From: a bacterium
GTDB lineage: Bacteria > Bacillota_I > Bacilli_A > Izemoplasmatales > UBA1188
NCBI GenBank assembly: GCA_017541975.1
Contig: JAFXYB010000001.1
Coordinates: 1-35,388 of the forward strand
Length of the DNA: 35,388 nt
Reading direction: 5' to 3'
Below, one piece after another: positions 744-28,839 of this stretch (positions are counted from its first letter, which is position 1; each line of letters starts with the position of its first letter). A program made the translations under genes and the position numbers. Under the pieces are notes generated by a model. The model had not been told where the DNA came from. It saw nothing but the letters and a program-made list of their open reading frames with translations, and searched no databases.

Positions 744-2412
744 ATTTTAGCTTCCTTAACTGCTCCTTAATTTGTTTATTAAGTTCATCGCCTTCAGCAA
801 ATAATTTATCTAAAGTTTCTTCATATGATTTCATCTTTGCTTCAAACTCTTCTTGTGTCATTTCAACATATTCAATCTTTACATCAAAGTATTGTCCTGC
901 AGCAAAAGAATAATTTTTCTTCTCTAAATCTTCATATTTAACTAGTACACTAAAGTCATCAACTACTTCTTTATTGATAAATGTATTTTCAATCTTTAAT
1001 ACTTCTTCTGGTTTTAATACAGTCTTTTGGTTTTTGCCTTCTTTAACTTTATCACCAAGTTTTGAAGCATCAACTAAAATGATGTCACCATTTTGGTTTG
1101 TTTTATCAATAAAGATAACTGATACATTAGTTCCAGTATTAGCAAATATATTTGATGGCATTGAAACAACACCTTTTAACCATTTACGGTCAACTATCTT
1201 TTGTCTTATTGTTTTTTCAATTCCAGACTGAGCTGTTAAAAATCCTGTTGGAACTACGATTGCAGCTTTTCCTGAGTCTTTTAATGAAAATAAGATATGT
1301 TGAATAAATAGTAAATATATAGCCATTGATTCTTTTTTGTTATTAGGAATCTTTGGAACTCCAGCAAAGAATCTTTTTTCACCATTGTTATCTGTATATT
1401 CTCCCCATTTACTTTCAATCGTATCTCTAGTAGATGAAAAATCTAATTTGAATGGTGGATTTGAAACGATATAATCAAATTTCTTTAATCCAGATTGTGG
1501 ATCATCTTCAATTAGATAATGAGCAGGCTTTACTAATGTATCGCCTTGGATTGCATTATGTAATGAATCATTTAATCCATTTAATAATAAATTTATTCTT
1601 AAAAATCTTGATGATTTTTGAGATATATCTTGTGTATATACTATAGCTCTAGAGATATCTTTTTCTTTACCTAGTTCATTTGCTAAATGTAATACTAATG
1701 ATCCAGATCCTGCAGATGGGTCATATATTTCACTAGCAGTTATTGTTTCACTCATTCCAACTAGAATCTTTGCGATAATCTCAGATACAGCTTGTGGAGT
1801 AAAATATTCAGCATATCTACCACTTGCTACATTATAATCTTTAATTAAATATTCAAATATTCTCGAATAAAAATCAAAACTGCCATTTTCAAATGCTACT
1901 GAAAAATCAAATTTACTCTTTGAAATATCACTAAAAATTGCTTTAGCAAAGTTATCTTTTGATGATTCTTCTACTTCGTTGCTTATTTTTTCAAACAATG
2001 GTTTCTTTGTGCCATCAGATGTTTCAACATTAAATGCACTATTTCTAGGATTGTTAGAAATGTTTTCTAATGCTTTATCAAACATCTTATAAAATCCTTG
2101 TTGACTTGCATATTGAATTAAATATTCAATTGTATCTTCATAATGAAAAGCTACACTTCCACTATATGCATCATAAAATGCATCTAACTCATTATTTTTG
2201 TTTTTGAAGATATCAGTAATGCTAATCTTTGTATCATCAGAAAATTGTTTTAGGTTGTACATGAATCTGTCATTTAAAAACTTGTATAGGAAAACGGTTG
2301 TAATGACTCTTTCTTCACCACTAGCATTACTTAATCCCTGTTGATTACATATTCCTTTTAATGAATCAATTATGGATTCAATATCATGTTCTAATTTTTC
2401 ATAACTTGTCAT
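727..2412 (-). CDS. hsdM: Type I restriction-modification DNA methyltransferase subunit HsdM
   Basis: 561 residues. It transfers a methyl group from S-adenosylmethionine to adenine N6 in the site chosen by HsdS, and is also a structural part of the HsdR-M-S restriction complex. The N-terminal helical HsdM domain (about 1-160) is followed by the N6-adenine methyltransferase fold: motif I DPSAGSGS at 231-238 for cofactor binding and catalytic motif IV NPPF at 318-321. The charged C-terminal helix (about 520-561) suits contact with HsdS. A strong AGGAGG site precedes the ATG. It lies 11 bp downstream of hsdR and overlaps hsdS, so the three are translated from one message. Length and motifs are normal. 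Confidence 0.95.
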   Translation of the reverse strand: MTSYEKLEHDIESIIDSLKGICNQQGLSNASGEERVITTVFLYKFLNDRFMYNLKQFSDDTKISITDIFKNKNNELDAFYDAYSGSVAFHYEDTIEYLIQYASQQGFYKMFDKALENISNNPRNSAFNVETSDGTKKPLFEKISNEVEESSKDNFAKAIFSDISKSKFDFSVAFENGSFDFYSRIFEYLIKDYNVASGRYAEYFTPQAVSEIIAKILVGMSETITASEIYDPSAGSGSLVLHLANELGKEKDISRAIVYTQDISQKSSRFLRINLLLNGLNDSLHNAIQGDTLVKPAHYLIEDDPQSGLKKFDYIVSNPPFKLDFSSTRDTIESKWGEYTDNNGEKRFFAGVPKIPNNKKESMAIYLLFIQHILFSLKDSGKAAIVVPTGFLTAQSGIEKTIRQKIVDRKWLKGVVSMPSNIFANTGTNVSVIFIDKTNQNGDIILVDASKLGDKVKEGKNQKTVLKPEEVLKIENTFINKEVVDDFSVLVKYEDLEKKNYSFAAGQYFDVKIEYVEMTQEEFEAKMKSYEETLDKLFAEGDELNKQIKEQLRKLKYEERD

Positions 2413-2423
2413 TAGTCTTCCTC

Positions 2424-5400: not shown

Positions 5401-5474
5401 CCAAGCCTTAAAAAGTGAATTGTACCTGGAAATTTAACTCTTGTATCTTCATTGAAAGCAACTCTTAGTTCCAT
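2424..5474 (-). CDS. hsdR: Type I restriction endonuclease subunit HsdR (translocase/nuclease)
   Basis: 1016 residues. This is the motor and nuclease of the type I complex: it pumps DNA with ATP and cuts unmodified DNA away from the recognition site. The N-terminal PD-(D/E)xK nuclease is visible as RPD (129-131) and EVK (145-147). The superfamily 2 motor follows, with Walker A TQGSGKT (327-333) and DEAH (439-442); SRVNRPY further on is motif VI. The C-terminal 300 residues are helical and probably contact HsdM. It is first in the operon. The ATG has an AGGAGA site about 12 nt upstream, and an extended -10 (TGATAAAAT) sits 40 bp upstream beside a palindrome. The gene looks intact. Confidence 0.95.
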   Translation of the reverse strand: MELRVAFNEDTRVKFPGTIHFLRLGYKYRSYNNALENGLIDFKTKIFVDTFKKSISKINNKEYDDEEIKGIIDKIHNTISNNDLGKEFYAWLINPIDKPRLIDFKNINNNVFEVVNELKFGEKDEGHFRPDINILINGIPLAFLEVKKPNNEGGIQVEFDRMVNKRYEQIEHRKYFNMIQLTCFSNNMPYETDDDRETEPKQGSFYSTPNGSQTTFNFFREESKEEVPLLEDDNDVIEDLLIDNGYSPDVMDTLEYKTNIAINTPCNSFITSLFEKSRLLYLLQYGIVYVDEDIVKKHIMRYPQFFASQAILKRIKNGGKSGIIWHTQGSGKTELAVYVNRIIRDFYAEQGINARFFYVVDRLELLNQTKAAFEMRGVEAVSVDGKEAFVDELNRSLDKKKNQSAFGACCVVNIQKFSDSLPEVSNDYNAKTMRIFFVDEAHRSYSKGTGEFYKNLMLVDRDAIFLAMTGTPLLSKKERSNLRFGEYIHKYFYDRSILDGYTLKIKKEEMETIAKADIKRNLELELKGKRENEKQKILESDEYVAALAKYIEDDFKNFRYVNGDPSIGAMIVCHSNPQAAKMQNWFEKFSNLNTRLVTDEVPSEVNKESQKDFKTAKNGIDILIVNLMLTTGYDVPRLKKMYLLRAPKEHSLLQTISRVNRPYKSPNGKTYQYGYISDFVDITEEYDRTVAQYLKELNEELTDPDDPSSVNGGKLVFDVNEIEKKYQNALERLEEIHDHDNLEEYDMFLQRFNDKDPLYKLRKLINTILDCKTEFLLSHEDEKAAQIDRKHFKELVKLVQHRIDFLNLTGNPLQTMDFLSEKEVVELLFEFVKIRTIVLDLKNIKVPDNFRVYIDTLAHEVKKIKNHDDEEVISLDVLLKNAFDKLAFNNANDIDSLSKEIQEAIEKARKINKENEKLSAEFNGEFAYVKTYQDICKNHPEFEKDKVLKFVKIISEAVVGIKSVNNLVLLGRTNFVANIKKQTSGKLLKEGLYSSLALNTLFDTVLGNLFVNLQLY

Positions 5475-8717: not shown

Positions 8718-9052
8718 AATAGAATCTATAAGCCATGTTCTGTAGTAGACAGTCATCTATCTTCAGTTACCTGACCATATTTTAGTTCAGTTCCTAAAAT
8801 ATGACTCCCCTACCAAAATTTGGGTTTCTGACTTAAGGGGTTTACCAACGTTTCATTTTTAAGTATTCCTTAAAACTCGTCTCTGTGGCACTTTATGGAT
8901 ACTTTTGCCTTTTATATCAATTTCTCCGCCGTTACCTATTTGTATAGATACCTAGGGTTATTTATTCCCCTAGCATAAACACTTACAATCATCGCAGATT
9001 GTGTCAGCATGGACTTTCCTAACGAATAATCGCTCGACTGTCCGATTCTATT
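8718..9052 (-). ncRNA. rnpB: RNase P RNA, Bacillus (B) type
   Basis: This is the catalytic RNA that removes 5' leaders from tRNA precursors. On the minus strand the conserved blocks appear in order: AGGAAAGTCCATGCTGAC near the 5' end, AGTGCCACAGAGACGA, GGTAAACCCC, AGAAACCCAAATTTTGGTAG, then ACAGAACATGGCTTAT at the 3' end. The AGAAACCCAAATTTTGGTAG block and the overall order match B-type RNAs of low-GC Gram-positives. The ends are set by complementary AATAGAATC and GATTCTATT, which form stem P1; exact ends may be off by a few bases. The gene starts only 13 bp after the pnp stop, so it may be processed from the pnp message or use a promoter inside pnp. Confidence 0.95.
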
Positions 9053-12501: not shown

Positions 12502-14328
12502 TTAATATTTTGTGAGGGCTGCGGCACCATAAGCTCCAGCTTCATTACCGAGGGTCGCATGAACGAGTCTAACCTTAGGTGCATCAAATCCGCTATATTT
12601 ATAAGCGTTCATTTTTCTTTCAAGGAGAGGAATATATTTAGAGATTACATATGAAACTCCACCACCAATAACAATTACTTCTGGTTGGAATAGATTGCAG
12701 ATATTCACAAGACCTAAGAGGAGATTGTTTTGGTATTTCTTGACATATTCTTTAGCTGCTTCATTTGTTTCATCTAATTGGAAAATTTTAAGTGGTTTAT
12801 CATCATCACTAATTAGTTCTGCAAGATGTGTTTCTGGATTAGCTCTTAATTGATCAACATCGAGTTTTAATCTCTTAAGAGATAATAGCGCTTCAAAACA
12901 GCCATATTGGCCACATGTGCATTTGAAACTATCAGATTTAACTTTCATATGTCCTACTTCTGAAATTGAACCTTGGCCGCCTTTGAAGAGCTTGCCATCA
13001 ATGATGGCACCACCACCAACGCCAGTACCAAGAGTTACTAAGAACATATCGTGGTATTTTCTCTTATCTGTATAATAATATTCACCAAGGGCTGCGCAGT
13101 TAGCATCGTTATCGATGATAACTTCAATTCCGAGTTCCTTACCTAAAAGTTCTGCGATAGGTGAATTAGTGAGTCCGAGGTTATTGGAGAATTTTACAAT
13201 TCCATTAACGGTATCTATATGTCCTGGGAAGCCTACACCAAGTTTAGTGAAGTAATTTCTTGGGAAATTAGAGTTTTTGATTAAGCCTAAGAAACATTCT
13301 TTCATATGGCCGACGATTACTGCTTCACCGAGTTCACTTTCGGTTGGTGTTTTACATTCAGCAATCTTATTAGCGGCATCATCGATGATGGCGCCTTTAA
13401 TTGATGTGCCACCAACATCGAGTCCGATACCATAATCAGCGAATCTAGTGATTAATAATTCGCCTTTACCTTCTAAGTGAAGATATGATGATGGATCTAC
13501 TAGGAAAGAATCACCTCTTTTGAATTCTACAGTATCAATTGATAATTGTCCTCTTGTGATAGTAACCAAAGAGAATGAACCTTCATTGAATCTTAGATTA
13601 TATTTATCAAAGATATTATATTTGATTACTTCGAAATATTTTCCAGCATAGAGAACTTTAGCTTTTCTATCGATATCTGTGTTTACTACGTATTGATTAT
13701 AATTTAAGACATTTAAGCCTTCTTCTAAGTTCAATAGTGGATCTAATCTATCGTAATCATATAATCTATATGATGTATCAACTCCTTGTGATACTTCATA
13801 TAGAGTTATACCTTTACCTATTGCATAAATTATTCCTGATGGTACTTTATAATAGTCACCTACTCTAACCTGTACTTTATTTAGGCAGTTTAAAATAGAG
13901 CCATCTTTGATAGCTTCTTCTATTTGTTCTCTTGTATAATCGTTATTGAAACCGAGGTAAATACATGCATCTTCATCAGTATCAAGGATATACCATAGTT
14001 TATTATCACCAAGTTTATTATGATGAATAATCGCATATTCATCAGAAGGTGATACTTCAACTGGCATATTTTCACCTGCATCGATGATTCTAACGAATAG
14101 ATTTACATCTTTATTTTCTAAGTTTTTACCAAGTTTATTTGATTTTATATAATCTTTTAGTAAAACAGTTTTTTCGTCTCCTTGAACAGAAGGCATAGAT
14201 GAATCATCAAGGGAGAATTCAATTGAATCAGAAAGCGATTCAAGCTCTGTACCCTTATGATAACGATATTTAAGTTTAGTTCCAGCCCAAATGGACTGAT
14301 TGAAAGTAGGTTTGATCTTATAGAACAT
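12502..14328 (-). CDS. Fusion of a degenerate mannose-6-phosphate isomerase-like domain and a ROK sugar kinase
   Basis: 608 residues. Residues 1-298 have the short Bacillus-type class I isomerase fold (SIWAG, WYIL, SYRLYDYDR), but the zinc-ligand positions read E91, S93, K110 and Y168 instead of Gln, His, Glu and His. Residues 299-608 form a complete ROK kinase: ATP motif GLDVGGTSIKGA, catalytic DNDAN (406-410), GTGVGGG, and the ROK zinc site H460, C470, C472, C477 (CTCGQYGC). The likely activity is ATP-dependent glucose or hexose phosphorylation, with the isomerase part probably binding sugar phosphate or serving structure. The ATG at 14328 is preferred over GTG at 14343 because GAGGT lies 8 nt upstream. 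A LacI-type gene follows. Confidence 0.85.
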   Translation of the reverse strand: MFYKIKPTFNQSIWAGTKLKYRYHKGTELESLSDSIEFSLDDSSMPSVQGDEKTVLLKDYIKSNKLGKNLENKDVNLFVRIIDAGENMPVEVSPSDEYAIIHHNKLGDNKLWYILDTDEDACIYLGFNNDYTREQIEEAIKDGSILNCLNKVQVRVGDYYKVPSGIIYAIGKGITLYEVSQGVDTSYRLYDYDRLDPLLNLEEGLNVLNYNQYVVNTDIDRKAKVLYAGKYFEVIKYNIFDKYNLRFNEGSFSLVTITRGQLSIDTVEFKRGDSFLVDPSSYLHLEGKGELLITRFADYGIGLDVGGTSIKGAIIDDAANKIAECKTPTESELGEAVIVGHMKECFLGLIKNSNFPRNYFTKLGVGFPGHIDTVNGIVKFSNNLGLTNSPIAELLGKELGIEVIIDNDANCAALGEYYYTDKRKYHDMFLVTLGTGVGGGAIIDGKLFKGGQGSISEVGHMKVKSDSFKCTCGQYGCFEALLSLKRLKLDVDQLRANPETHLAELISDDDKPLKIFQLDETNEAAKEYVKKYQNNLLLGLVNICNLFQPEVIVIGGGVSYVISKYIPLLERKMNAYKYSGFDAPKVRLVHATLGNEAGAYGAAALTKY

Positions 14329-14346
14329 ATGTGTGTACCTCACTGA

Positions 14347-14803: not shown

Positions 14804-17800
14804 TTATTCAATTGTACCATCTGTGCAAATAATCTTTGGGAGTTTATTAGATGGATCTATTTCGATCTCATTCCATTCTGCCTTCGTACCATTATAAATA
14901 ATTGATGATAAGTTTACACAATCTTTGAAAATATCTTTTCCTATTTTCTTTAGACTCTTTGTGATAGTAATTGATTCTAGGATATCACAATTATTAAATA
15001 CATAATCTCCTATTGCTACAACAGCCTCTGATAATTCAATAGTCTTAATAAAATCTAGGTTAAAGAATGAATTATTATCTAGTCCAAACTCATAGACATA
15101 TCCAACATCATCTGAGAAATAAAATCTATTTGGAATTATAACGTTAGGACTATTACCTGTATACCTTATAATCAAATACTCTCCAACGCTCGTATTTAGG
15201 GCATAAGAAAATGAATCTTTATAATTGTATACTTTATCGGCATAGAAAGCGACAAATCCATAATTTGATGTACCTTGTGTAATCTCATTCGTCCTATAAT
15301 TATAGACTGTTTTTAAATTGGTGCAGCCATAAAACGCAGTCTTTCCAAAGTTTATTGATGCATTAGGTATTGTCACAGAGGTAATATTTTTATTATTGGT
15401 AAATGATAGGGTATCGATTGTGTATGATGTTATAGTTTCTCCATCATATATAAATGATTCTGGGAAAATAATATCTGTGTCTTCTCCAAGATAATCTGTG
15501 AGGAACCACTTTGTAGCACCATCCATTCCTTTTTTAAAGACAAATCCATTTTCATCAGTAGTTGAAATAGAATCGTCAATTGTACGAGTGATATTTCCAA
15601 TAACTAAACTATCAATATCGTTTGCATCAAAATCAATAACGCTACCAGTGCATTTTTGTACATATAGTGCATAATAAGCGGCTCTTCCCAAAACTTCTGA
15701 ACCTAAACTTAAAGATTTATCAGAATAGTTAAAGACCATTTTTATATTGCTGCATCCGTAAAAAGGATAATAAATATAAAGACTTGAACGATTAACATTA
15801 TTAGCATAATCTGATCGTACAATAATACTTTCAAGACTTGTTATAGATTCAGGCAAAACTAACACTTCAATAGATTTACAATTTGTAAATGTATAAACCC
15901 TTAATGTTTCGACGGCGTTCGGAATCACTAAAGTTTTTACTAATTCATCATTTAAATATAGGTTTTGTGCATAATAGAGTGGATTAGAAAAGTTTTGAGT
16001 AGCTTGTGCCAAATCTGAGTAAAAAAATTCATATTCAAATTCTATCTTGCACCACGCCTCAATATTTTTGATATTTACTTTGTTTAGGGATGTGCACTTA
16101 TAGAAAGCTGATAATCCACATTTAGTTAATGAATTTGGTATATCGACAGCTTCAAGCATATTGCAATTATTGAATGCATATCGACCAATAGTTTTAAGAG
16201 TTGATGGGAAAATAATTGTTTTTAAAGTAGTATTTCTATCAAAAGCATAAATTTCTATTGACTCAGTTCCTTCCGAAACTATGTAGTTTTCACCAATACT
16301 GGTTGTTGCTAAGATTAATTTCTTTAGATCTTTTGAATATAAACAACCATTATTTGATTTATTGTATTCATTATCACTTGCAACTTCTATAGATTGAAGT
16401 GGTATTGAATTATAGAAAGCATTTGTATCAATTGTAGTTACGCTACTAGGAATAGTTACGTTCTTTATACTAGTGCAATAATAAAATGGTATTTTATTAA
16501 TTGTTGTAACACCTTCAGGTATTATTAAATCAGTTAGTAATTCATCATTCAAATATAAATCATGTGAAAAATATGATGGATTTGTATAATAATCATTTTC
16601 AAAGACAATATTACACCAACCTTCTAAATTTTTAATAATAACCTTTTTAAGAGATGTACAACTAGTGAAAGCATTTGAGTTTATTGCCTTCACACTGCTA
16701 CCAATCCCAATTGTAACCAATGATTTATAATTGCTGAAAGCATATTCATAGATTATAGTGACGTTATCTGGAATGATTATTGTTTCATCATCTCCATCAT
16801 ATGAAATAAGTATTACTTCATCTCCGTCTTTATGTATTATAAATTTGCCATCTTTTTCTAATACTGATTCATCGTTAGATAAATACCTAACACTGCTTGA
16901 AGCGCCATATTCTGAGTTTAAAATAGCTGAATTTAATTCAATATTTGATTTGTTTATAATTTCATATAATTTAGTACAACCACTAAAACATGATTTATTA
17001 ATTATCTCTACACTTTCAGGGATTGTAATGGTTGTTAAAAATGAGCAATTTGCAAATGATCCATAGGCTATTGATTTAATAGTTAATCCAGGTAGTGCTT
17101 CATTAAAGTCAAAATACTTAATGTCTTTATTTAACAACTTGAATAATAATACGTTATTATCGTCAGCTAAAAAATATGAATAATCATCATTTTCCACAAA
17201 TTCAATATTTTCATAGTTATAATTATATTCAAAACTTGTGAATGAATTAATTTGTTTCTTAAAAGCACTTAATTCTTCTTCTGTTCCCTTATAGAAGCAA
17301 TAATTAGTTTGTAATGAAGTTATTACATTATTAGTAATATATTTGATACCTTTTGGTAAAATAACATAATTTAATTTTGCATTAAGTATGCCATATCCAC
17401 CAATTATTAAACAGTTTTCATGTATTGTGATATTATTTATCGATTCATCGGCTACGTTTACACAAGCTAAATAAGGGTTATCTATACTGCCTAAATAACA
17501 TCCATTACCAAATACATTATATTTAATAGATGGACAACCTTGGAATGCATACAGTTGAATATTTTCAATTGTATTTGGCAAAATGATATTCTCTAGTGAA
17601 GTATCATTGTAAAATACATTATTATTGATTGTGGTCAAACTATCAGGGATAGTAATTGATTCGAGTGATAAGCAGTTAGAAAGAGCATAGTTTCCCATAG
17701 ATGCAAGATTATTTGATAAGTTAATGCTTTTTAATTTTTCACAGTTATAAAAAGCATATTGATCTATTTCTATAACACTATCTGGAATAGTAATAGTTTT

Positions 17801-19636
17801 AAAATTTGTATATGCAAAGGCATATCTGCCTATTGATGTTACACTATCAGGAATTGTTGAGGCATTACATGCAGCAATAATCTTGTTTGTGCTTTTTTCA
17901 ATAATTACGTTATTATTAAGAGATGTATATATTGTATTTTGTGAACTTACTTTTATTTCCTTCAATGAAGAACAACCATAAAATAATGAACCACCAATTT
18001 CATTTACCGATGAAGGAATATTAATTGATTCAAGTTTAGGACAATTTATAAAACAGTTAACATCTATATATTTGAGTCCTTCATTTAACACAACAGTTTT
18101 TAGATTTTGGCAATCTCCAAATACTGTGCGGCCTAAAGTTAAAACGCCGGATGGAATATTGATAGTAGTTAACGAAGAACCAGAAAACGCATATTCACCA
18201 ATACCCTCAACGGAATTTGGAATTGTTATTTCAGAAATATCCAGATTATAAAAAGCATAACTTCTAATATCACTTACATAATTAGGTATTATAGTGTTTT
18301 TTGTCCCTATTACTAGGCCGCCATAATATCCAGGTCTATAGATAAGAGCATTAGAACCATTTCCCGAAGTGTAATAAGGGTTATTTTCATCGACAACTAT
18401 GCTTTCTAATGAAGTGCAACCCAAAAATGGCCTCATCATATTGCCATTAATAGACAACTTTGCAGTGCTAGGAAAATATATTGATTTTAGTGATGTACAA
18501 GAATTAAATGCATTGTCTTCTATAATTTCAACACCTTCTGGTATTCTTACTGATCTAAGTGATGAACAACCACTGAATGCATTGGTTCCTATAGTTTTTA
18601 CTGAACTTGGAATGCTAATTGAGGTTATATTTTTACAGTTTTGAAAACCAGCTACGTATGTTACACCATATGGAATAGAAACGCTCTTAAGTGACCAACA
18701 GTTAGTAAACATATACCCATTATATCTTTCACTATCAATATGAATATCATTAGCATTTATTGTTTCAACTAATTTTCCATTTAGATATAGATAATGAGCA
18801 AAATATAGTGGATTATATGATACTGAATCCACGCTAATTTTATTAAAAGCATTTAAATCACTTATTTCTACTCTTTCAAGTGATGTGCAATAATTAAATG
18901 CGTTAGTTCCAATTCTATTTAATACTGGTGATATATATACAGATTTAATATTGTTCAGACCTGAAAAACCATTTGTTTTTATTTCTTTAACTGGTTTATT
19001 ATTGTAAGTTGCTGGAATAACTACTGCTTCGTATTCATAGTCTTCTTTCGCTGAAACAAAATAGTATGTTTCATCTCTAGTTAGTTCAAATACAAGACCA
19101 TCGATATAAGAAAGTGAATCAATTACATAATCAGGATCTATATAAATATCGTCACAATTATTGCACTTTCTATATCTATATCCATTTGCAGTATCAGTTG
19201 GTTGTACTATTACCCAATCAGTTGAATAGTTATGGACATGTTCTGTGGTTATGTTTTCTTTAGTTGTAGTTATTATTTCTTGTGTTGTAGTAACTATCTC
19301 TTCTGTAGTAGTAATTATCTCTTGTGTGGTGGTTACTATCTCTTGAGTAGTTGTGATATTCTCTTTTGTAGTAGTAACTACTTCTTTGGTTGTGGTAGTA
19401 ACTGGCTTCTCTTTCGTAGTTGGTTCGTTGTAGGTTGTAGTAGTTGTAGGAGTATCCTCTTTAGTAGTAGTTATTTCCTTACTAGATGTTGTACTACTAT
19501 TGTTATCTACTGTTGTAGTAGTCACAGTATCTTTAGTCGTAGTTAAAGGGGTTGTACTAGTAGTATCATCATTTGTGCAACCAATGATTATTAACAATAA
19601 GGATAGGATTAATATTATTATTCTTGTGCGTTTCAT
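14804..19636 (-). CDS. BspA-like leucine-rich-repeat surface lipoprotein
   Basis: 1610 residues. A lipoprotein signal (MKRTR, hydrophobic 6-18, lipobox IIGC with C20) anchors it to the outer face of the membrane. Residues 21-135 are a Thr-rich stalk with seven tandem heptads TTTxExx (81-129). A short Cys pair (RKCNNCD) follows, then dozens of BspA/LRR_5 repeats (pattern IPxSVxxIGxxAFxxCxSLxxI). A module with NPLYFAHYLYLNGKLV-like sequence recurs at least three times, and YNGTKAEWNEI near the end is a usual BspA closing motif. Such proteins mediate adhesion to host or other microbes; here this is inferred. An AAGGAG site precedes the ATG, and the gene stands alone with its own promoter. Confidence 0.9.
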   Translation of the reverse strand: MKRTRIIILILSLLLIIIGCTNDDTTSTTPLTTTKDTVTTTTVDNNSSTTSSKEITTTKEDTPTTTTTYNEPTTKEKPVTTTTKEVVTTTKENITTTQEIVTTTQEIITTTEEIVTTTQEIITTTKENITTEHVHNYSTDWVIVQPTDTANGYRYRKCNNCDDIYIDPDYVIDSLSYIDGLVFELTRDETYYFVSAKEDYEYEAVVIPATYNNKPVKEIKTNGFSGLNNIKSVYISPVLNRIGTNAFNYCTSLERVEISDLNAFNKISVDSVSYNPLYFAHYLYLNGKLVETINANDIHIDSERYNGYMFTNCWSLKSVSIPYGVTYVAGFQNCKNITSISIPSSVKTIGTNAFSGCSSLRSVRIPEGVEIIEDNAFNSCTSLKSIYFPSTAKLSINGNMMRPFLGCTSLESIVVDENNPYYTSGNGSNALIYRPGYYGGLVIGTKNTIIPNYVSDIRSYAFYNLDISEITIPNSVEGIGEYAFSGSSLTTINIPSGVLTLGRTVFGDCQNLKTVVLNEGLKYIDVNCFINCPKLESINIPSSVNEIGGSLFYGCSSLKEIKVSSQNTIYTSLNNNVIIEKSTNKIIAACNASTIPDSVTSIGRYAFAYTNFKTITIPDSVIEIDQYAFYNCEKLKSINLSNNLASMGNYALSNCLSLESITIPDSLTTINNNVFYNDTSLENIILPNTIENIQLYAFQGCPSIKYNVFGNGCYLGSIDNPYLACVNVADESINNITIHENCLIIGGYGILNAKLNYVILPKGIKYITNNVITSLQTNYCFYKGTEEELSAFKKQINSFTSFEYNYNYENIEFVENDDYSYFLADDNNVLLFKLLNKDIKYFDFNEALPGLTIKSIAYGSFANCSFLTTITIPESVEIINKSCFSGCTKLYEIINKSNIELNSAILNSEYGASSSVRYLSNDESVLEKDGKFIIHKDGDEVILISYDGDDETIIIPDNVTIIYEYAFSNYKSLVTIGIGSSVKAINSNAFTSCTSLKKVIIKNLEGWCNIVFENDYYTNPSYFSHDLYLNDELLTDLIIPEGVTTINKIPFYYCTSIKNVTIPSSVTTIDTNAFYNSIPLQSIEVASDNEYNKSNNGCLYSKDLKKLILATTSIGENYIVSEGTESIEIYAFDRNTTLKTIIFPSTLKTIGRYAFNNCNMLEAVDIPNSLTKCGLSAFYKCTSLNKVNIKNIEAWCKIEFEYEFFYSDLAQATQNFSNPLYYAQNLYLNDELVKTLVIPNAVETLRVYTFTNCKSIEVLVLPESITSLESIIVRSDYANNVNRSSLYIYYPFYGCSNIKMVFNYSDKSLSLGSEVLGRAAYYALYVQKCTGSVIDFDANDIDSLVIGNITRTIDDSISTTDENGFVFKKGMDGATKWFLTDYLGEDTDIIFPESFIYDGETITSYTIDTLSFTNNKNITSVTIPNASINFGKTAFYGCTNLKTVYNYRTNEITQGTSNYGFVAFYADKVYNYKDSFSYALNTSVGEYLIIRYTGNSPNVIIPNRFYFSDDVGYVYEFGLDNNSFFNLDFIKTIELSEAVVAIGDYVFNNCDILESITITKSLKKIGKDIFKDCVNLSSIIYNGTKAEWNEIEIDPSNKLPKIICTDGTIE
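19250..19396 (-). repeat. Seven tandem 21-bp units encoding TTTxExx heptads
   Basis: Residues 81-129 of the lipoprotein read TTTKEVV, TTTKENI, TTTQEIV, TTTQEII, TTTEEIV, TTTQEII, TTTKENI. The DNA units are similar but not identical. They form a surface stalk that could vary in length by slippage or recombination. Confidence 0.75.
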
Positions 19637-19717: not shown

Positions 19718-22700
19718 TTAAATTGTATCAATTTTTCTAAGTTCTCTATCCATTATTGAATAAAGATATGTCTCAATAGGTTTATTTGTTCTGGTTTTGA
19801 GATAGTCTTTATAGGTTTTAAGTTGAGTAACATAGAGAGGATCATCGATGTTTTTGAGTTTAAAATCGATGATATAGAAGGAATCTTCATATTCAATTAA
19901 ATAGTCGATAATACCTTTAGAGCTTTCGGTAAAATATGGAAGCTCATGGTACTCTTTGATGATTGGTTTATTAAAGATATCAAGGCTTTTGAAAGACCTT
20001 AAAAGGTCTTTATCTTGAACTGGAATCTGATATTTCTCCATCTGTGGTTCGATATCAGATGTGAAGTTCACAAGTTCAAAATATGAATGAACTTCAGTAC
20101 CTCTTTCTAGTACTTTGAATACTTCTTCATCTTGTGTATAGAGTTCGTGAGAAGCCCTAGTTTTATTTACTAATTCTTTCTTTTTTGTATTAAAGATATG
20201 ATAGTTGACGTGATTTGTATAAGCTATATCAGGGTCTTTTTGTATAATGATGTTTTTAGTGTTTGATGGTTTGACATAATACTTTGAAAAATCATTATTC
20301 ATAAGTAGTAGTTTTTGATATGTCTTTGCATCATTTAGTTCGCCGATATATTCAGTTGTGTTTTCATCGAACACTAAAGTTAGAGATTCTTTTGGACGTG
20401 TTAAGGCAACATAAAGTAGTCTAATTTTTTCTATTCTTACTTCAGCGAGTTCTAATGTTTGATATAGTTTATCCAAAGATTTATCTGTTTTATAATAGAT
20501 ACCAAAGTCCTTCTTAAAATTATCAATTGTATCCTTGAATGATTCATGAGTTCTAAGGTAGTAGACAAATGGTCTTTCAAGACCTTTTGATTTATGGATG
20601 GTCATGATAGAAACATAATTTAAGGCATCAAGATCATTTTGTTTGATATCTAAATCGTTGTCGCTACTCTTTAGATAATCAAAATACTTAATCGCATCTT
20701 TAATACCCATTTTTGAGTTTGCGAGGGTTTTAACCGCATCTAATATATGAGAAATTTTGAGTTCTTTTTCTTCATAATCATCAAGAACCATTAATTTTTC
20801 ATAGACATTAAATATTTTGATTGCTTCTTTTAGAACGTAATACATGTTGTATCTATGAAGTGTTTGAACGAGATAGCACATCTTATCATAGAGATCTCTA
20901 AAGAGGGCAATCATTGCGCTGATATTAGATTGATATTTAGTTCTATCTAAATAATCAACTATTATATCGCCTTTAACACCCATCACAAAACTTCTAACAA
21001 TTGATAATAATGTTAGATTGAATTCAGGATCTTCAAATAATTCATTTTCAAATAAATATGTTAATTTTAGGATATTTTTTAAAAATACAATTTCTTTAGT
21101 TTTTATAAAGTCTCTTGTGTTGAATATCTTCGATTGAATATGATAATTCTTTAAGGCTTGTGCCATATCTTTAAAGTACTTAGATTGTGCGGATAGAATC
21201 ATGAAGTCTTTTGGTTCGGCTTTTCTCTTTTCTCCTGTTTTAGTATCATAGACCATTTGACCGTTATTGATTCTATCGTATATATCTCTTGCGATAATAT
21301 CGTATTCATTATCATTTTTAGGATCAATACTAAATATTTTAAATTTATTTGTTGGCTGATTGAAGTTATCATATTTAGTATTCCCATAACCCATATTTTG
21401 ATCTAAATATTTCATATTTACTTGTGGATAACTTTTGATATTAGTAAATGTGTTATTGACAATGTCTAGTACTTCTTCTTTTCTACTTCTAAAATTGTCA
21501 TAGAGTTCTATGACTTTACCAGTAGAATTATCTTTATAGTCGTTATAGATTCCTCTAAAGATTTCTGGATTAGCGCCTCTAAAACGATAGATACATTGCT
21601 TGATATCTCCAACAACTATTACATTATCATTTTTTATATAAGATATCATTTCATTTTGAATATCGTTGGTATCTTGATATTCATCGATTAAGATTTCTTT
21701 AATATGAGTTTTATAGTATTGTCTAACATCTTCATGCGTTCTTAGTATTCTGATAGCTTCTTTTTCAATATCAAGGAATGTATATACACTATGGTCTTTT
21801 TTAAACTCTTTTAATTTTATATCGAGTTCTTCTATAACAGTCATGATGAATGAAGATATTGATTTTTTAGCTAGATGGCCTTCTAAGATTTCTAGTTCAT
21901 TTTGATATTCAAAAAGCTTGCACAATTCTCTACGCGCATTTCTAAAGAATTCAAAACGCTCCCTTAATTCTTCTTTTTTATCTTCATCTTTCATTTTAAC
22001 TTGAGGGATGGATTTGTCTTTGCATTTTTTTAGTTCGGATATGACAAAAGATAATGAATCTGATTCAATAATTTCCTTTAAAGATTCTTTAATTTCATTA
22101 ACATACTTTGTAACCTTGTCTAGATAATCTGGAACTTCTATCTGTAAAATGAAACTCGATTTTTCTTTTGCGATAGTTAAATATCTATCCTTTATTGAAA
22201 CTAAGAATTCTGGAGAATAGAAATATTGAATATAGTTTTTGATGTAGTCCTCATAATCGACAATATTTGTGATTTTGTCGTATAAATCAAAGAAATATTC
22301 ATAGATATCACTTTCTTTTTTAACGAAGATATCAATGAATTCATTAAAAGCAGGAACTGGATTTTCAAAATATGGAGTGAGTATATCTTTTAAAATACCA
22401 TCCGCAACCATTTTAAACATATTTTTATCACCAATTTCAAATGTTTTAGGCATGGTGCTATAACATGAATATTTGGTGATAAAGCTACGACAAAATGAAT
22501 CGAATGTTTGAATACTTGCCTCATCGATATGTTCCAATTCATATTTTGTTTCTTGTCTACTTTCTTTTTTAAGTTCTTTGATAATTCTCGTTTTCATCTC
22601 TTGAGCTGCAAGATCGGTGAAAGTGAGAATTATCATCTCTTTTAGTTTGTAACCTTTGTCTTTTAAAAGATGAATAACTCTTTGAGTTAAGACAAAGGTT

Positions 22701-22795
22701 TTACCGCTACCAGCGCCAGCGCTTATTAGCATATTTGAACTTGGAGAATCAACAATTTTTTGTTGAGTAGTTGTTAAAGATAGTTCTTCACTCAT
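19718..22795 (-). CDS. addA: ATP-dependent helicase/nuclease subunit A (AddA)
   Basis: 1025 residues, somewhat shorter than B. subtilis AddA (about 1230). With AddB it resects double-strand DNA ends for RecA-dependent repair. UvrD-type helicase motifs are present: Walker A GAGSGKT (27-33), DEYQDTN, VVGDIKQCIYRFRG and YVALTRPKESL. The C-terminal RecB-like nuclease shows GIIDYL, IIDFKLK and the QLKTY motif. I place the start at 22795: GGAGG (22805-22809) is 9 nt upstream and addB ends one base before. A longer frame reaches 22861 but has no such signal and would overlap addB. This is the third gene of the cyclase-like gene/addB/addA operon. Confidence 0.93.
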   Translation of the reverse strand: MSEELSLTTTQQKIVDSPSSNMLISAGAGSGKTFVLTQRVIHLLKDKGYKLKEMIILTFTDLAAQEMKTRIIKELKKESRQETKYELEHIDEASIQTFDSFCRSFITKYSCYSTMPKTFEIGDKNMFKMVADGILKDILTPYFENPVPAFNEFIDIFVKKESDIYEYFFDLYDKITNIVDYEDYIKNYIQYFYSPEFLVSIKDRYLTIAKEKSSFILQIEVPDYLDKVTKYVNEIKESLKEIIESDSLSFVISELKKCKDKSIPQVKMKDEDKKEELRERFEFFRNARRELCKLFEYQNELEILEGHLAKKSISSFIMTVIEELDIKLKEFKKDHSVYTFLDIEKEAIRILRTHEDVRQYYKTHIKEILIDEYQDTNDIQNEMISYIKNDNVIVVGDIKQCIYRFRGANPEIFRGIYNDYKDNSTGKVIELYDNFRSRKEEVLDIVNNTFTNIKSYPQVNMKYLDQNMGYGNTKYDNFNQPTNKFKIFSIDPKNDNEYDIIARDIYDRINNGQMVYDTKTGEKRKAEPKDFMILSAQSKYFKDMAQALKNYHIQSKIFNTRDFIKTKEIVFLKNILKLTYLFENELFEDPEFNLTLLSIVRSFVMGVKGDIIVDYLDRTKYQSNISAMIALFRDLYDKMCYLVQTLHRYNMYYVLKEAIKIFNVYEKLMVLDDYEEKELKISHILDAVKTLANSKMGIKDAIKYFDYLKSSDNDLDIKQNDLDALNYVSIMTIHKSKGLERPFVYYLRTHESFKDTIDNFKKDFGIYYKTDKSLDKLYQTLELAEVRIEKIRLLYVALTRPKESLTLVFDENTTEYIGELNDAKTYQKLLLMNNDFSKYYVKPSNTKNIIIQKDPDIAYTNHVNYHIFNTKKKELVNKTRASHELYTQDEEVFKVLERGTEVHSYFELVNFTSDIEPQMEKYQIPVQDKDLLRSFKSLDIFNKPIIKEYHELPYFTESSKGIIDYLIEYEDSFYIIDFKLKNIDDPLYVTQLKTYKDYLKTRTNKPIETYLYSIMDRELRKIDTI

Positions 22796-22796
22796 C

Positions 22797-25061
22797 TTAT
22801 TCATCCTCCTCCATTTCATCTTCGATAGTAAATGTCTTATAACAGATATCTTTAAACCCACAGTTATAGCAAGAATTATCTTTTTTAGGATTTGCTTTGA
22901 AGTTGTTGTTTAGGATTTCATCGATGGTATCATCGAGGTATTTTTCTGCAACTTCTAGCATCTTATCCATCTCATCTTTTGATATTGCATTTCTTTTTTC
23001 TGTAATGGATCTAGATGGATTAATATTATTAATCAGATCTTCATATCCTAAAAACCTTGATTTAATAGATACTTTCTTATCTTCTTTTTTAGCCTTTTTA
23101 TCTATACATATATAGAAAATACCAAAGAGTTTTTTGTCTAATTTATTCATGGTATTATAGAGGTTAAAATAGATTAAAAGTTGTAATCCTTCACCTTCTT
23201 CTGTTTTCCAACTAGGAGGATTACCAGTTTTATAATCAAATATTAAAACATGGTTTGAATCATCTTCTAAAATTAGATCAGAGAATCCTTTCTTATATAC
23301 GGTAAAATCATTGTGTTTTTCTTTGACAAGAAGTCGTTTTTCTTTATAGGTTTTATTTACAGAAAGTGAATCATAATAACCTTTGATTATCTTTACGATT
23401 TCAGAGATGTTTTCATAGAATTTTTTGAAGAAATATTGTTCGATAATTGATAATTCAAAACCTTTATCTTTATTTTCATCTCTATATTCTTCATAGAGGA
23501 TATCCACTTCTGATTGATCATATTCTTTATCGATAAATCTTTCGATTACTTTATGGAAAAAATTGCCTAAATATGAATCATATGTTGTATCAAATGGATT
23601 AAGATTTAAGATATTTGATGCAAAATACTTAAATGGGCATGATAAATAATTATTAAGGCTTGAATTAGACATTTTAAGAGTGTTTTTTAAATATTCTTTA
23701 ACTCTATTTTCATTATCAAAAACTAAGTCATTAGAGAAAGAATTTCTAAGATTTTTCTTTTCTTCTCCAAGCATGTAGAAGTTTTTATAATCTTCGTTTT
23801 CAATTCCATATTTTTCTTTGATATCTAACGATTTGAAATATTTGATAATATCTCTCTTCATTGAATAACGATCATTAGAATAAACCATTTTTAATGGTTC
23901 TTGATAGTTGTTTAGTTTATCGATAATAGATGCCTTGATGTAATCTTTTGTATCATCTTTTAATTTATATGATACTACGACATTCTTAATCGCAGGGAAT
24001 CTCTTACAAAGGAACGATTCTCTGAAGGTATTGATCTGTTCCTCGGTTTTAAGCCCAAGATACTGGAGAGTTTCATCGGTTAAAAGGCCTGATTCTTTAT
24101 ATGGAGATGGGAAAGATCCTTGGTTAGCACCAAGGACGAATAAATATTCATCTTCATTAAATAATCTATCGTTAAATGAACCGATTTTAATGCAGTTTTT
24201 ATATTTCTCACTTCTGATATAGACTTTGCTTAAGAGGTATTCAAAGAATTCTTCTTTTATACGATGATGGCCTTTGAAGATGTTTTCGATTGCTTCTTTA
24301 TTCTTTGGATCAATCTCATATAATTCATAGAACTTCTTGAAGGAATCGATTGTGAGAAGATTGGTTTGCTCCCTAAAGAATTTGATTAATTTATTGGTAT
24401 CTTCAAGTGAACTAATTGGGATTATTTCATCGTAAGAATATTCAATATTATAGAATGGGAAAATATCATCAATTAAATTGATGTATTTTGGATCAGATAT
24501 TTCTACAAAGATACTATCAGGATTAACTCCTTTATCTAATAGTTCTGAAATATTCTCGGCAAGGCCTTCAACTTCTAGTACAATATTTGGATATTCAATA
24601 AATTTATGATTTAATTCTTCTTCTTTTAACTTATTTGCCTGAAGATAATCAATTTTTATTCCTATTTTTTCAATTTCTAAAAATGTTTTAAATATTAGAG
24701 TATTAAAGTTAAAACCAACGAATATTACTAGGTTTTTATCCTTGTAATATTCAATTTTTGCAGGATTATAATGATAATAATCTTTAACTAATTCTTTATA
24801 TATAGAATCGGTTATAAGGAATGAATTTAGATATTCTTCTGCACCATCATATGTGATTTCAAAATTGTTTTTGATGATATCTAAAGCTTCTTCATCGTAG
24901 TAACCTAGAAAATCTTTAATTAGTTCACTCATCGGAATGAACTTAACATCATAAAGATAATCTGAATCAGAGATAAGCTTAAAGAAGGTATGTTCTTCTT
25001 TGGTTGGAACAACTAGTATGTTGGTTTTTTCTTTGGAGAGTTTATCTGTGATGTAGTTCAT
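22797..25061 (-). CDS. addB: ATP-dependent nuclease subunit B (AddB), short form
   Basis: 754 residues from ATG 25061, against about 1160 in B. subtilis. The C-terminal nuclease is complete: GNFFHK, LIFDYKTG and a QLLIYF helix, plus the four cysteines of the AddB 4Fe-4S clamp (SCPFKYF, then CxxC-5-C in DNSCYNCGFKDICYK). The N-terminal inactive-helicase part is reduced, and no Walker A P-loop is visible: the protein begins near the ILVVPTKEE strand that normally follows it. The start is 4 bp after the upstream stop with no ribosome binding site, so translation is coupled; a longer in-frame start at 25115 would overlap that gene by 50 bp. It pairs with AddA in DNA-end resection. Confidence 0.88.
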   Translation of the reverse strand: MNYITDKLSKEKTNILVVPTKEEHTFFKLISDSDYLYDVKFIPMSELIKDFLGYYDEEALDIIKNNFEITYDGAEEYLNSFLITDSIYKELVKDYYHYNPAKIEYYKDKNLVIFVGFNFNTLIFKTFLEIEKIGIKIDYLQANKLKEEELNHKFIEYPNIVLEVEGLAENISELLDKGVNPDSIFVEISDPKYINLIDDIFPFYNIEYSYDEIIPISSLEDTNKLIKFFREQTNLLTIDSFKKFYELYEIDPKNKEAIENIFKGHHRIKEEFFEYLLSKVYIRSEKYKNCIKIGSFNDRLFNEDEYLFVLGANQGSFPSPYKESGLLTDETLQYLGLKTEEQINTFRESFLCKRFPAIKNVVVSYKLKDDTKDYIKASIIDKLNNYQEPLKMVYSNDRYSMKRDIIKYFKSLDIKEKYGIENEDYKNFYMLGEEKKNLRNSFSNDLVFDNENRVKEYLKNTLKMSNSSLNNYLSCPFKYFASNILNLNPFDTTYDSYLGNFFHKVIERFIDKEYDQSEVDILYEEYRDENKDKGFELSIIEQYFFKKFYENISEIVKIIKGYYDSLSVNKTYKEKRLLVKEKHNDFTVYKKGFSDLILEDDSNHVLIFDYKTGNPPSWKTEEGEGLQLLIYFNLYNTMNKLDKKLFGIFYICIDKKAKKEDKKVSIKSRFLGYEDLINNINPSRSITEKRNAISKDEMDKMLEVAEKYLDDTIDEILNNNFKANPKKDNSCYNCGFKDICYKTFTIEDEMEEDE

Positions 25062-25065
25062 AGTA

Positions 25066-26409
25066 TTATTGGAAATCAGAGATAGTGAAGATTGCTTCTG
25101 GTTCATCATTCTCATCTAAGGCAAAGCCTTTGATTGATGAATCTGATGATATTTCTATAGAAATACCATAATGAGATAATGTTCTTGCAGCAGCAACTCT
25201 ACCGCCACCAGTTGAACCAGCTTCAATCTTGACGATTGCACCGATAGCGACGATATCACCATTGTAGTCAATGATGGTTGCACCATCAATGCCTACCAAT
25301 TCTTGTCTTAGTTTTCTATATAACATAAAGAATTTTCTACCATCAATTAATCTATTTAATAGACAAGATTTGATATTTTGTTTGAGTTTTAAGAATTCTT
25401 CAAATGTGATATTTTTAATTGATTCATATTCTGGATCATTTGATTCGGCCATGAGTTTTCTTTTGATTTCAAAATATTTCTCATTACAAATATCTTTGAT
25501 ATTTATATGATTTAAGGCATTTTGAACTTCGTTTTCATCGAGGAATGAAATGATACCACCAGTTTGGGTAAATGATACATCTATGGCAGTAAGATATACT
25601 GCTTTTGCGAAGAGGAGGTTATCGTTTTTAGATCTTTCATGGATGAGCTTAATTGTTTCTTTGTGGCTGTATGGATTCCATCTACCACCACGTTTTGTAT
25701 ATCTAAGTTCACTATCATGGTAGATTAAGATTTCACCTTTCGCTGTTAGAACGATTGCGGTAACATCTTCTCCTGAATATTCAAGAATTCTTGTGTAGTT
25801 ATATGGAGCGAGTGCTAAATCGCTCTTTTCACTATTTAATTGAACATATCTATTTACGTAACCATCAGAATCTACTTCGATAAATGATTCTGTACCATTA
25901 GTTAAAACGGCTGCGAATGGACTTGAGATAAAGTTTGTGAAATATACATTATCAACTCTATTCTTGCATGATATTTTATCGTTTATGACAACACCGAATG
26001 AGATATTTCTACCTTCATATGTTCTTTCACTAAATTTTGATAGAGAGTTAATTACCATAGTAATAGTTGATGTTGAAACAGTAGAAAGGGTTGTGGCAAT
26101 CGCTTTATTAAGAGCGCTTTGAATCAGTGTTTCTACATATTCTTCACTTAGGTTAGGATAACTTTCTATTAAGTTCACTTCGGAAATGAAACTTGTAAGA
26201 AGGGTACAGTCTTCAGGAAGGAATGGACGCTCTCTTTTAATTTTATATCCTTTGATACCGTGAATATCACCTTTGATATTTAAAGTACCATCATCGTTTA
26301 GTGATGCATATTGTTGATCATAAAATTCAACTTCTTCAGTTATTTCAAAAGTTGGATAAAGATAGAAAATGAAATTGTTTAATATTTCTTTAAAATGGGT
26401 TAGTATCAT
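25066..26409 (-). CDS. Diadenylate-cyclase-like (DisA_N/DAC superfamily) protein with large N-terminal domain
   Basis: 447 residues. The last 80 residues resemble the DAC domain that makes c-di-AMP: DGA at 375-377, a Gly-rich turn followed by Arg-Ala (GGGRVAAAR, 401-409), then a SSDSSIKGF strand pair matching the usual SEETGxI region. The canonical GTRHR catalytic motif is altered. Residues 1-350 are an uncharacterised probable sensor domain with a GGRWNPY motif (241-247) and TGGIISF; no membrane segment or DisA DNA-binding domain is seen. It is first in an operon with addB and addA. An AGAGGTGA site precedes the ATG. It could be a divergent cyclase, a c-di-nucleotide sensor or an inactive relative; family placement is by motif only. 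Confidence 0.6.
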   Translation of the reverse strand: MILTHFKEILNNFIFYLYPTFEITEEVEFYDQQYASLNDDGTLNIKGDIHGIKGYKIKRERPFLPEDCTLLTSFISEVNLIESYPNLSEEYVETLIQSALNKAIATTLSTVSTSTITMVINSLSKFSERTYEGRNISFGVVINDKISCKNRVDNVYFTNFISSPFAAVLTNGTESFIEVDSDGYVNRYVQLNSEKSDLALAPYNYTRILEYSGEDVTAIVLTAKGEILIYHDSELRYTKRGGRWNPYSHKETIKLIHERSKNDNLLFAKAVYLTAIDVSFTQTGGIISFLDENEVQNALNHINIKDICNEKYFEIKRKLMAESNDPEYESIKNITFEEFLKLKQNIKSCLLNRLIDGRKFFMLYRKLRQELVGIDGATIIDYNGDIVAIGAIVKIEAGSTGGGRVAAARTLSHYGISIEISSDSSIKGFALDENDEPEAIFTISDFQ

Positions 26410-26440
26410 ATGTTCACCTCTTAAATATATTCTTTATTTT

Positions 26441-26446
26441 ATTATA
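26441..26446 (-). promoter_or_regulatory. -10 box of the cyclase-like/addB/addA operon
   Basis: Minus-strand TATAAT, 31 bp upstream of the ATG, preceded by GTT rather than TGn. The -35 (TTTATT at 17 bp) is weak. The lon terminator upstream means this operon needs its own promoter, which supports the call. Confidence 0.5.
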
Positions 26447-26487
26447 AACTAAGTTTTTAAAAAAATAAAGGAAATTATTAGATAATA

Positions 26488-26521
26488 ATTAAATAAAAAT
26501 AAGGCGATTTTGTCGCCTTAT
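26488..26521 (-). terminator. Terminator of lon
   Basis: Minus-strand ATAAGGCGA and TCGCCTTAT form a 9-bp stem with a 5-nt loop, followed by TTTATTT. It includes the lon stop codon and ends the tig-lon transcript. Confidence 0.88.
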
Positions 26522-28839
26522 TTAACGAATGCAAGCTTTAAGACTTCATCAAGATTTGATACTGGAATTATCTCAAGGCTTGATTTGATTTCTTCTGGGA
26601 TTTCATCTAAATCCCTAACATTTTCTGATGGGATTAGGATGGTTTTAAGACCGCTTCTATGTGCAGCTATAGATTTTTCTTTGAGTCCACCGATAGGAAG
26701 AACTCTACCTCTTAGGGTGATTTCACCTGTCATACCAACGTCGTGTTTCACTTTCTTATGAGTGAAGGCACTAGCGATAGCGGTTGTCATAGTGACACCG
26801 GCACTAGGACCATCTTTTGGCACAGCACCTTCTGGTACGTGAACGTGAACATCGAGTTTATCGAAGTATTCTTCGTTAATATTGAGTTCAGTTGCGTGAC
26901 TCTTTACCCAAGAATATGCAGCTTGTGCTGATTCTTTCATGACATCACCGAGTTTACCGGTTAGGAGTAATCCTCCTTTTCCTTTATATGTGGTTACTTC
27001 AATTTGAAGTGTATCACCACCATATTGAGTATAGGCAAGACCAGTTACCACACCGACCATATCTTCTTTTTCAGATACATTGTTTTGGTATACCTCTTTA
27101 CCGAGATAATTCTTTAGGTTAGTTGCATCTACGATAACCTTTTCTATCTTATCTGATAAGATTTGTCTAATTGATTTACGGATGATTGTGCCAATATGTC
27201 TTTCAAGTTGACGTACACCAGATTCTCTTGTGTAATGTTTAATAACATTCATGAGAGCTTCATCGGTGATTTCAAACTTGTTTGGTTCTAGACCGTTAAT
27301 CTCAAGTTCATTCTTGATGACATGAGTTTTGGCGATTTGGAATTTTTCAATTTCTGTATAACTTGAAAGTTCAATTACTTCCATTCTGTCATAAAGAGGA
27401 GCTGGAATGTTTTCTATGTAGTTTGCAGTACATATGAACATTACTTTTGATAAATCATAGTTTTCTTCTACGTAGTGATCGCTGAAACATTTGTTTTGTT
27501 CTGGATCTAGTACTTCTAGAAGTGCTGCAGAAGGATCACCTTTATAGTCTGAACCAACTTTATCGATTTCATCGAGGAGGAATACTGGGTTTACTACTCC
27601 TGCTTGTCTCATTCCATTCATGATTCTACCAGGAAGAGCACCGATATAAGTACGTCTATGACCTCTTATTTCTGCTTCATCTTTTAAGCCACCTAATGAC
27701 TGTTTAACGAATTTTCTTCCAAGAGCTTTAGCGATTGACTGTGCTAGTGTTGTTTTACCAACTCCAGGAGGGCCTACGAAGCAGATGATTGTTTGAGGGT
27801 TTTTGTTTGTGTAGAGCTTAACTGATAGATATTCAATGATTCTATCTTTTGCTTTATCGAGACCAAAGTGTGTTTGGTCTAACTTTTCTTTAGCTTTAAC
27901 GATATCTGTTTCATCTACTGTTTCAAGGTACCATGGGATATCAATCATTGTATCAATGTATGAACGAATCATACCTGATTCAGGAGATGCACTTGATACG
28001 CTTTGATAACGTCTAAGTTCTTTTAAAACATGTTCTTCAACGTTTTTTGGCATTCTTGCTTCTTTTATCTTAGTACGTAGTACTTCAATATCAGATGTAG
28101 CATTATCAACGTCACCTAGTTCTTCTTGGATTGAATGGATTTTTTCTCTTAGATAATATTCCTTTTGAGCTTTTTCCATCTTCTCTCTGACATCTTGTTC
28201 GATCTTGTCATCGAGTTCTTTGTTGTAGAAGAAAGAATTGATATCTTGAATAATCATGTTGAGTCTTGAATTTACATTCAACTCTTCAAGATATGAATAG
28301 AGATTCTTATCTCTTAAGATAAGGTTAGATGCAACGATATCTGAATAGATAGCTGGATCTACACGTTTATTCATTTCTTCTACTACTTGTTTACTGTTTT
28401 TTAGGAATGCTCCACCTTTTTCTAGGATTTGCGTATTGATTTTTGATAGGAAGAATTGTTGATCATCAACATTTCCATATATATCATCTAGGATGTGATA
28501 GTTACTATAAACATAGTCATTTGATACGTAAAGAGTGTTCACTTGAACACGAGCAAATGGTGTGAATTTGATTTTGAAATTTGAATTTGGAAGTTTGATT
28601 TTAGTATCGAATTTTGCGAGTAAGGCGATAGGATAACAATCGTTGATTGTTGGAGGTACGCCTTCTTCACCCATGTCTTCCTTTTGGAAGACAAGGAGGA
28701 TTTCATTTTCATATGATAATTCTGAAGTGATTACAGCATTTTTTGAAAATGATCTACCAACTTCTATTCTCATTTCAATATGTGGTAATGCAACGGGAGC
28801 CTTGATTGGCAATACTGGTAAAAGATCTTTATCAGTCAT
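26518..28839 (-). CDS. lon: ATP-dependent Lon protease
   Basis: 773 residues, the standard LonA length. Cytoplasmic hexameric AAA+ protease that degrades misfolded and regulatory proteins. The N-terminal substrate-binding domain (1-200) and coiled coil (210-270) are followed by AAA+ motifs GPPGVGKT (356-363) and FLLDEIDK (420-427). The proteolytic domain has the Ser-Lys dyad, S679 in DGPSAG and K722 in GGLKEK. An ideal AAGGAGG site precedes the ATG. It lies 19 bp downstream of tig, so a chaperone and a protease are co-transcribed, and a terminator overlaps its stop codon. Confidence 0.98.
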   Translation of the reverse strand: MTDKDLLPVLPIKAPVALPHIEMRIEVGRSFSKNAVITSELSYENEILLVFQKEDMGEEGVPPTINDCYPIALLAKFDTKIKLPNSNFKIKFTPFARVQVNTLYVSNDYVYSNYHILDDIYGNVDDQQFFLSKINTQILEKGGAFLKNSKQVVEEMNKRVDPAIYSDIVASNLILRDKNLYSYLEELNVNSRLNMIIQDINSFFYNKELDDKIEQDVREKMEKAQKEYYLREKIHSIQEELGDVDNATSDIEVLRTKIKEARMPKNVEEHVLKELRRYQSVSSASPESGMIRSYIDTMIDIPWYLETVDETDIVKAKEKLDQTHFGLDKAKDRIIEYLSVKLYTNKNPQTIICFVGPPGVGKTTLAQSIAKALGRKFVKQSLGGLKDEAEIRGHRRTYIGALPGRIMNGMRQAGVVNPVFLLDEIDKVGSDYKGDPSAALLEVLDPEQNKCFSDHYVEENYDLSKVMFICTANYIENIPAPLYDRMEVIELSSYTEIEKFQIAKTHVIKNELEINGLEPNKFEITDEALMNVIKHYTRESGVRQLERHIGTIIRKSIRQILSDKIEKVIVDATNLKNYLGKEVYQNNVSEKEDMVGVVTGLAYTQYGGDTLQIEVTTYKGKGGLLLTGKLGDVMKESAQAAYSWVKSHATELNINEEYFDKLDVHVHVPEGAVPKDGPSAGVTMTTAIASAFTHKKVKHDVGMTGEITLRGRVLPIGGLKEKSIAAHRSGLKTILIPSENVRDLDEIPEEIKSSLEIIPVSNLDEVLKLAFVK

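Follow-up and report, generated by a model that had tools for sequence, protein, structure and literature searches.

A divergent diadenylate-cyclase-like gene precedes addB and addA in a conserved operon of a rumen bacterial genus

The first gene of a three-gene operon with addB and addA encodes a protein that is likely to be homologous to diadenylate cyclases (DACs), and the order of the three genes is kept in every evaluable genome of the rumen bacterial genus in which it occurs. We favor the reading, with a probability of roughly 40%, that this protein is a divergent but active nucleotide-signal synthase, plausibly a replacement for CdaA, which was recruited into the addBA operon.

The window, that is, the whole stretch of 35,388 nucleotides analyzed here (contig C20), comes from a MAG of 1.18 Mb that is 82.5% complete. 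The sequence-only reading had described a tightly packed operon isolated by the terminator of lon, and on both points it was borne out. The ORF listing places the DAC-like gene, addB, and addA in that order at the positions claimed (Table 1), with intergenic gaps of 4 bp and 1 bp, and a terminator-like hairpin is present ahead of the trio. The flanks hold lon, tig, and a BspA-like gene; the ORF that adjoins addA (14804 to 19636; 1,610 codons) is lipoprotein-like and combines a Thr-rich segment with numerous leucine-rich repeats of the BspA type.

Table 1. Features of the operon and its surroundings, in window coordinates
Feature	Coordinates	Strand	Basis
DAC-like gene, operon gene 1, 447 aa	25066..26409	-	ORF; orthologues in 6/7 genus genomes (61-91% identity)
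addB, 754 aa, ATG at 25061	22797..25061	-	Profile and motif evidence
addA, UvrD-type helicase, ATG at 22795	19718..22795	-	Profile and motif evidence
lon, upstream neighbor	26518..28839	-	ORF
lon terminator-like hairpin, 11-bp stem	26497..26523	-	Hairpin found in sequence
39-bp dyad, CTTTATTTT-N21-AAAATAAAG, palindromic interior	26432..26470	-	Genus comparison
Putative C-terminal DAC-like domain, about residues 269-432, boundaries inferred	25114..25605	-	Motif alignment to CdaA
DGA motif, residues 375-377 (D375-G376-A377)	25279..25287	-	Unchanged across the genus and homologues of 24-31% identity
GGGR, residues 401-404, in place of GTRHR	25198..25209	-	R404 invariant in all full-length homologues; hhalign register
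ISSD, residues 420-423, at canonical SEE site	25141..25152	-	I420, S421, and D423 invariant

The uncertain part of the earlier description was the label "diadenylate-cyclase-like" because Pfam gave no hit at all for the window protein or its orthologues, and NCBIfam thresholds were not reached. The family as a whole stays under the gathering score of the Pfam DAC model (PF02457). Its best match to that model, from the Agrobacterium homologue, has an E value of 7.6e-4 and 19.5 bits, under the cut-off of 27, and three family members show a weak match over the DGA region to NF053872, the DAC of the DS-2 system, with 13 to 16 bits against a cut-off of 630. When the family was aligned by hhalign with canonical CdaA proteins of the same order, the catalytic motifs fell in register and the alignment beat 123 of 123 decoys, narrowly. 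AF2 models, attempted for the full-length protein and the C-terminal domain with six genus sequences each, were poor (pLDDT of 55 and 46). A search with Foldseek identified DisA as the top match of one low-confidence model, with a nonsignificant E value of 0.12, and gave no match for the second; a profile search of PDB sequences gave no match to the DAC-like protein. This evidence is consistent but weak, and we consider DAC homology likely on the strength of it. Kinship with DisA in the strict sense does not hold, as there is no DisA, CdaA, or Pfam DAC match and the RHR motif is degenerate; the DisA linker and HhH DNA-binding domain likewise gave no Pfam match in the window protein.

The C-terminal domain is the best-conserved region of the protein. 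Residues invariant across the family comprise Y-E-G in mid-protein and D-G-A, S-x-x-G-x-R-x-A-A, and I-S-x-D at the C terminus, and these C-terminal motifs occupy the positions of DGA, GTRHRAA, and SEE in diadenylate cyclases. DGA, R404, and D423 are unchanged down to 24% identity, and the aspartates of DGA and ISxD are likely metal-ligand positions. With canonical CdaA, DisA, and CdaS (PF02457) the window protein shares the DGA motif, the first arginine of RHR, and an acidic residue where SEE lies, and its C-terminal elements come in a similar order. It differs from them in the missing Pfam match and in the RHR site, where GTRHR reads GGRxA: the first R is retained, the H and second R are lost, and T is replaced by G. 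In known DACs the H and second R are important for phosphate binding, and their loss means that this is not a canonical DAC; of all the evidence, this loss speaks most strongly against canonical c-di-AMP synthesis. The N termini also differ, the window protein having a long region without matches where CdaA has membrane helices and DisA has its linker and HhH parts.

Orthologues of the DAC-like protein within the genus share 60 to 91% identity, and a search of the 83 other genomes of the order found the gene missing from them. Among the genomes compared, this genus is the only one of its family. The order DAC-like gene, addB, addA is kept in all six evaluable genus genomes, with junctions of 0 to 8 bp or overlapping ends; one genome (G004) was left out of this count, its addB being cut by the end of a 4,372-base contig. 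The sequence-only reading had named confinement to a single genome as a reason to doubt the arrangement; the arrangement recurs across genomes and is limited to one genus of the order. The trio adjoins lon in G000, G001, and G003, while other genes intervene in two genomes: a DUF3800 gene and one further gene in G006, and a carboxylesterase-like gene and rmuC (RmuC, E = 7.1e-61; L071, 10318 to 11655) in G002. Downstream of addA, gene content also varies between the genus genomes. The flanks are rearranged around a tight order that stays constant, which shows the trio to be maintained as a unit and not to be a chance arrangement. Elsewhere in the order, in family f3 (L039 to L059), addB mostly lies directly after rlmN, sometimes with one gene between.

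The genes of the operon evolve at very different rates. Within the genus, Lon is 68 to 90% identical and AddB and AddA merely 30 to 60%, with AddB down to 30 to 31%. For the pair G000-G003, dN was 0.069 for the DAC-like gene and 0.081 for lon, against 0.303 for addB and 0.342 for addA, with dS near 1 to 1.4 for all four. The nonsynonymous evolution of the DAC-like protein is therefore about 4 times slower than that of AddB and AddA, and the gene is under strong purifying selection.

The identities of the two partners were clear from profiles and motifs. AddA matches the Pfam UvrD-helicase model (4.7e-53), its top NCBIfam match is addA_Gpos (1.7e-90), and it contains Walker A, DEYQD, and the C-terminal nuclease motif GIIDYLIEYEDSFYIIDFK. 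AddB matches PDDEXK_1 (Pfam, E = 3.9e-29) and carries a C-terminal PDDEXK nuclease GFSDLILEDDSNHVLIFDYK with a CxxC..C cluster, the Fe-S cysteines being C475, C731, C734, and C740; Walker A is absent from it. These helicase and nuclease motifs of AddA, and the nuclease and cysteine cluster of AddB, are shared with the AddAB of Firmicutes, from which the window proteins differ in the length of AddB (754 aa), its lack of Walker A, and scores below the NCBIfam equivalog cut-offs. Both proteins are short. The addB genes elsewhere in the order are likewise short, at about 700 to 890 codons, so a short AddB is typical of the order and not peculiar to the trio locus.

Immediately before the ribosome-binding site of the first gene lies the 39-bp dyad, which contains a TATAAT-like -10 element. 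Its arms are identical in four genomes and carry one mismatch in a fifth; the sixth has a hairpin of different sequence. Two pairs of the interior are altered on both sides, that is, they covary, and the folding z-scores range from -1.8 to -4.8. No other copy was found in the 159 kb of genus sequence scanned. The dyad may be an operator or a 5' UTR hairpin.

The genus appears unusual in its complement of c-di-AMP genes. A canonical DAC (PF02457) was found in none of its seven genomes, two of which are 96 to 97% complete, and is present in 78 of the 83 other genomes of the order; seven joint absences are unlikely to result from MAG incompleteness. Five of the seven encode the c-di-AMP phosphodiesterase GdpP, whose DHH/DHHA1 domains retain every catalytic residue (the H..D.D, D, DHH, D, and GGGH ligands). 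With the canonical DAC undetected and GdpP kept, the DAC-like protein is the only candidate synthase of the GdpP substrate. Both in the genus and in genomes elsewhere in the order (L064 to L068, L062), gdpP and rplI, the gene for ribosomal protein L9, form one ORF of about 815 codons; as the fusion runs throughout the alignment, part of the retention of GdpP could follow from it. Neither DarA/PstA (PF06153) nor a c-di-AMP riboswitch was detected in any of the seven genomes, and many relatives that carry a canonical DAC are without them as well. DarA/PstA occurs in family f2 only and is missing from f3 despite a canonical DAC there, so its absence from the genus says little, and the riboswitch and YbbR/CdaR are rare or absent across the whole order and hence uninformative.

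Given these observations, the favored reading runs as follows. As a DAC-type enzyme, the first-gene protein would synthesize a nucleotide signal. The likeliest product would be c-di-AMP or something closely related to it, and in a genus that lost canonical CdaA the protein would have taken over the synthase role. Translated from one transcript together with AddB and AddA, it would couple the signal to double-strand-break processing, and the signal would reflect that processing, similar to the link that DisA makes between c-di-AMP and recombination in Bacillus. Our inferences here are the fold, the catalytic activity, its product, and any regulation between the protein and AddAB in either direction. 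In Bacillus subtilis, DisA acts with RecA/RadA (PMC6547438). The likeness lies in pairing a c-di-AMP-type synthase, here putative, with recombination machinery; the difference is that the window protein belongs to another family and shares its operon with the end-resection nuclease itself. No DAC-AddAB operons were found in the literature. A stronger form of the proposal, in which the protein represents a cyclic-nucleotide synthase of a new class (an active site of DGA, GGR, and ISxD, with no RHR) that replaced CdaA across the genus and is hard-wired to AddAB, such that break processing directly controls the messenger, seems to us unlikely.

Distant homologues were sought by profile search and tblastn. 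The family proved rare and patchily distributed outside the genus; its members there are very divergent and have no AddAB beside them. One homologue is in G309, a genome of the same class (E = 4.8e-48), within a defense island with AAA (AbiL-like, Ppl-like), Fic, and ToxN genes. Others are plasmid borne, in the gut bacterium Vescimonas fastidiosa, in Agrobacterium vitis, and in Paracoccus albus, and the Agrobacterium vitis copy adjoins a complete type II CBASS with phospholipase, CD-NTase, E1-E2, and JAB. The Paracoccus albus homologue (L027, 7641 to 8762) has an aberrant C terminus, in which the GGGR/ISxD end is lost shortly after DGA, and adjoins an IS3 element; it is probably an inactivated copy. 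A scan of viral contigs with three queries found no relative, and a homologue in MT837587, a gut entry named "Bacteriophage sp.," was rejected as phage evidence, as the entry looks like a bacterial fragment with a large SLH-type protein.

DeWeirdt and colleagues, using DefensePredictor, reported that DS-2, composed of a phospholipase, a cGAS, and a DAC, defends against phage, that defense is abolished when the residues predicted to be catalytic in its DAC are mutated, and that half of 30 homologues of this DAC adjoin CBASS (PMC13092281). The window family resembles the DS-2 DAC (NF053872) in its weak match over the DGA region and in the phospholipase-type CBASS beside the Agrobacterium homologue; it differs in its partners, which in the window are addB and addA and in DS-2 are a phospholipase and a CD-NTase. 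This report, the CBASS neighbor, and the defense island together mark the wider DAC-like family as defense associated, and one member appears to have been made a core gene in the genus. The earlier suggestion of a role in defense thus finds support in the contexts of the family elsewhere and in a related DAC of a validated system, and none in the operon or flanks of this genus, where no effector, CD-NTase, phospholipase, or other defense gene was recognized.

These contexts, the patchy occurrence outside the genus, and the DS-2 match would suit a domesticated antiphage cyclase, one that emits an immune signal, not necessarily c-di-AMP, once AddAB encounters phage DNA or is put out of action by it. 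We hold this to be improbable for the genus, in which the gene is core, slow evolving, and free of recognizable defense partners. From the slow, Lon-like evolution and the apparent loss of a canonical synthase, a core housekeeping function is indicated no less strongly than one in defense. The same slowness weighs on the idea of a catalytically dead DAC-fold descendant that serves AddAB as a nucleotide-binding regulatory or structural partner, such as a sensing subunit. An RHR site without its H and second R would fit such a protein, and within the genus the gene is constantly coupled to addBA and to nothing else, but a dN some 4 times below those of AddB and AddA would be out of character for a protein dedicated to partners that evolve fast. 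The likely metal-ligand aspartates of DGA and ISxD and R404 are, moreover, invariant in distant homologues that have no AddAB, and we rate a dead regulator as distinctly unlikely.

The disparity in rates would instead fit a housekeeping DAC-like protein, active or inactive, that is expressed from one promoter together with addBA but has no functional link to it, as would the restriction of the arrangement to one genus. Passive partnership of this kind is hard to square with flanks that are rearranged on both sides (in G002 and G006, and after addA) around a trio left intact with few bases between its genes, and it strikes us as the most doubtful of the explanations considered.

An active synthase, the reading we prefer, would have consequences that depend in part on its product. 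Were c-di-AMP made, the catalytic definition of diadenylate cyclases by RHR would need widening, and many genomes scored as lacking c-di-AMP would be re-read; were another nucleotide made, the protein would be a new signaling enzyme with a physical link to the main nuclease of break processing. With either product, the operon would offer a simple genetic unit for the long-suspected link between a nucleotide messenger and break repair and would bring a defense-associated cyclase family together with a core operon of DNA repair.

Three further features of the window lie away from the operon. By reading of its genes, a type I restriction-modification system (an S fragment, M, and R) occupies 165 to 5474. 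A class B RNase P RNA lies at 8724 to 9049, and a 613-codon ORF at 12502 to 14343, found also in L072, reads as a mannose-6-phosphate isomerase fused to a ROK-family sugar kinase.
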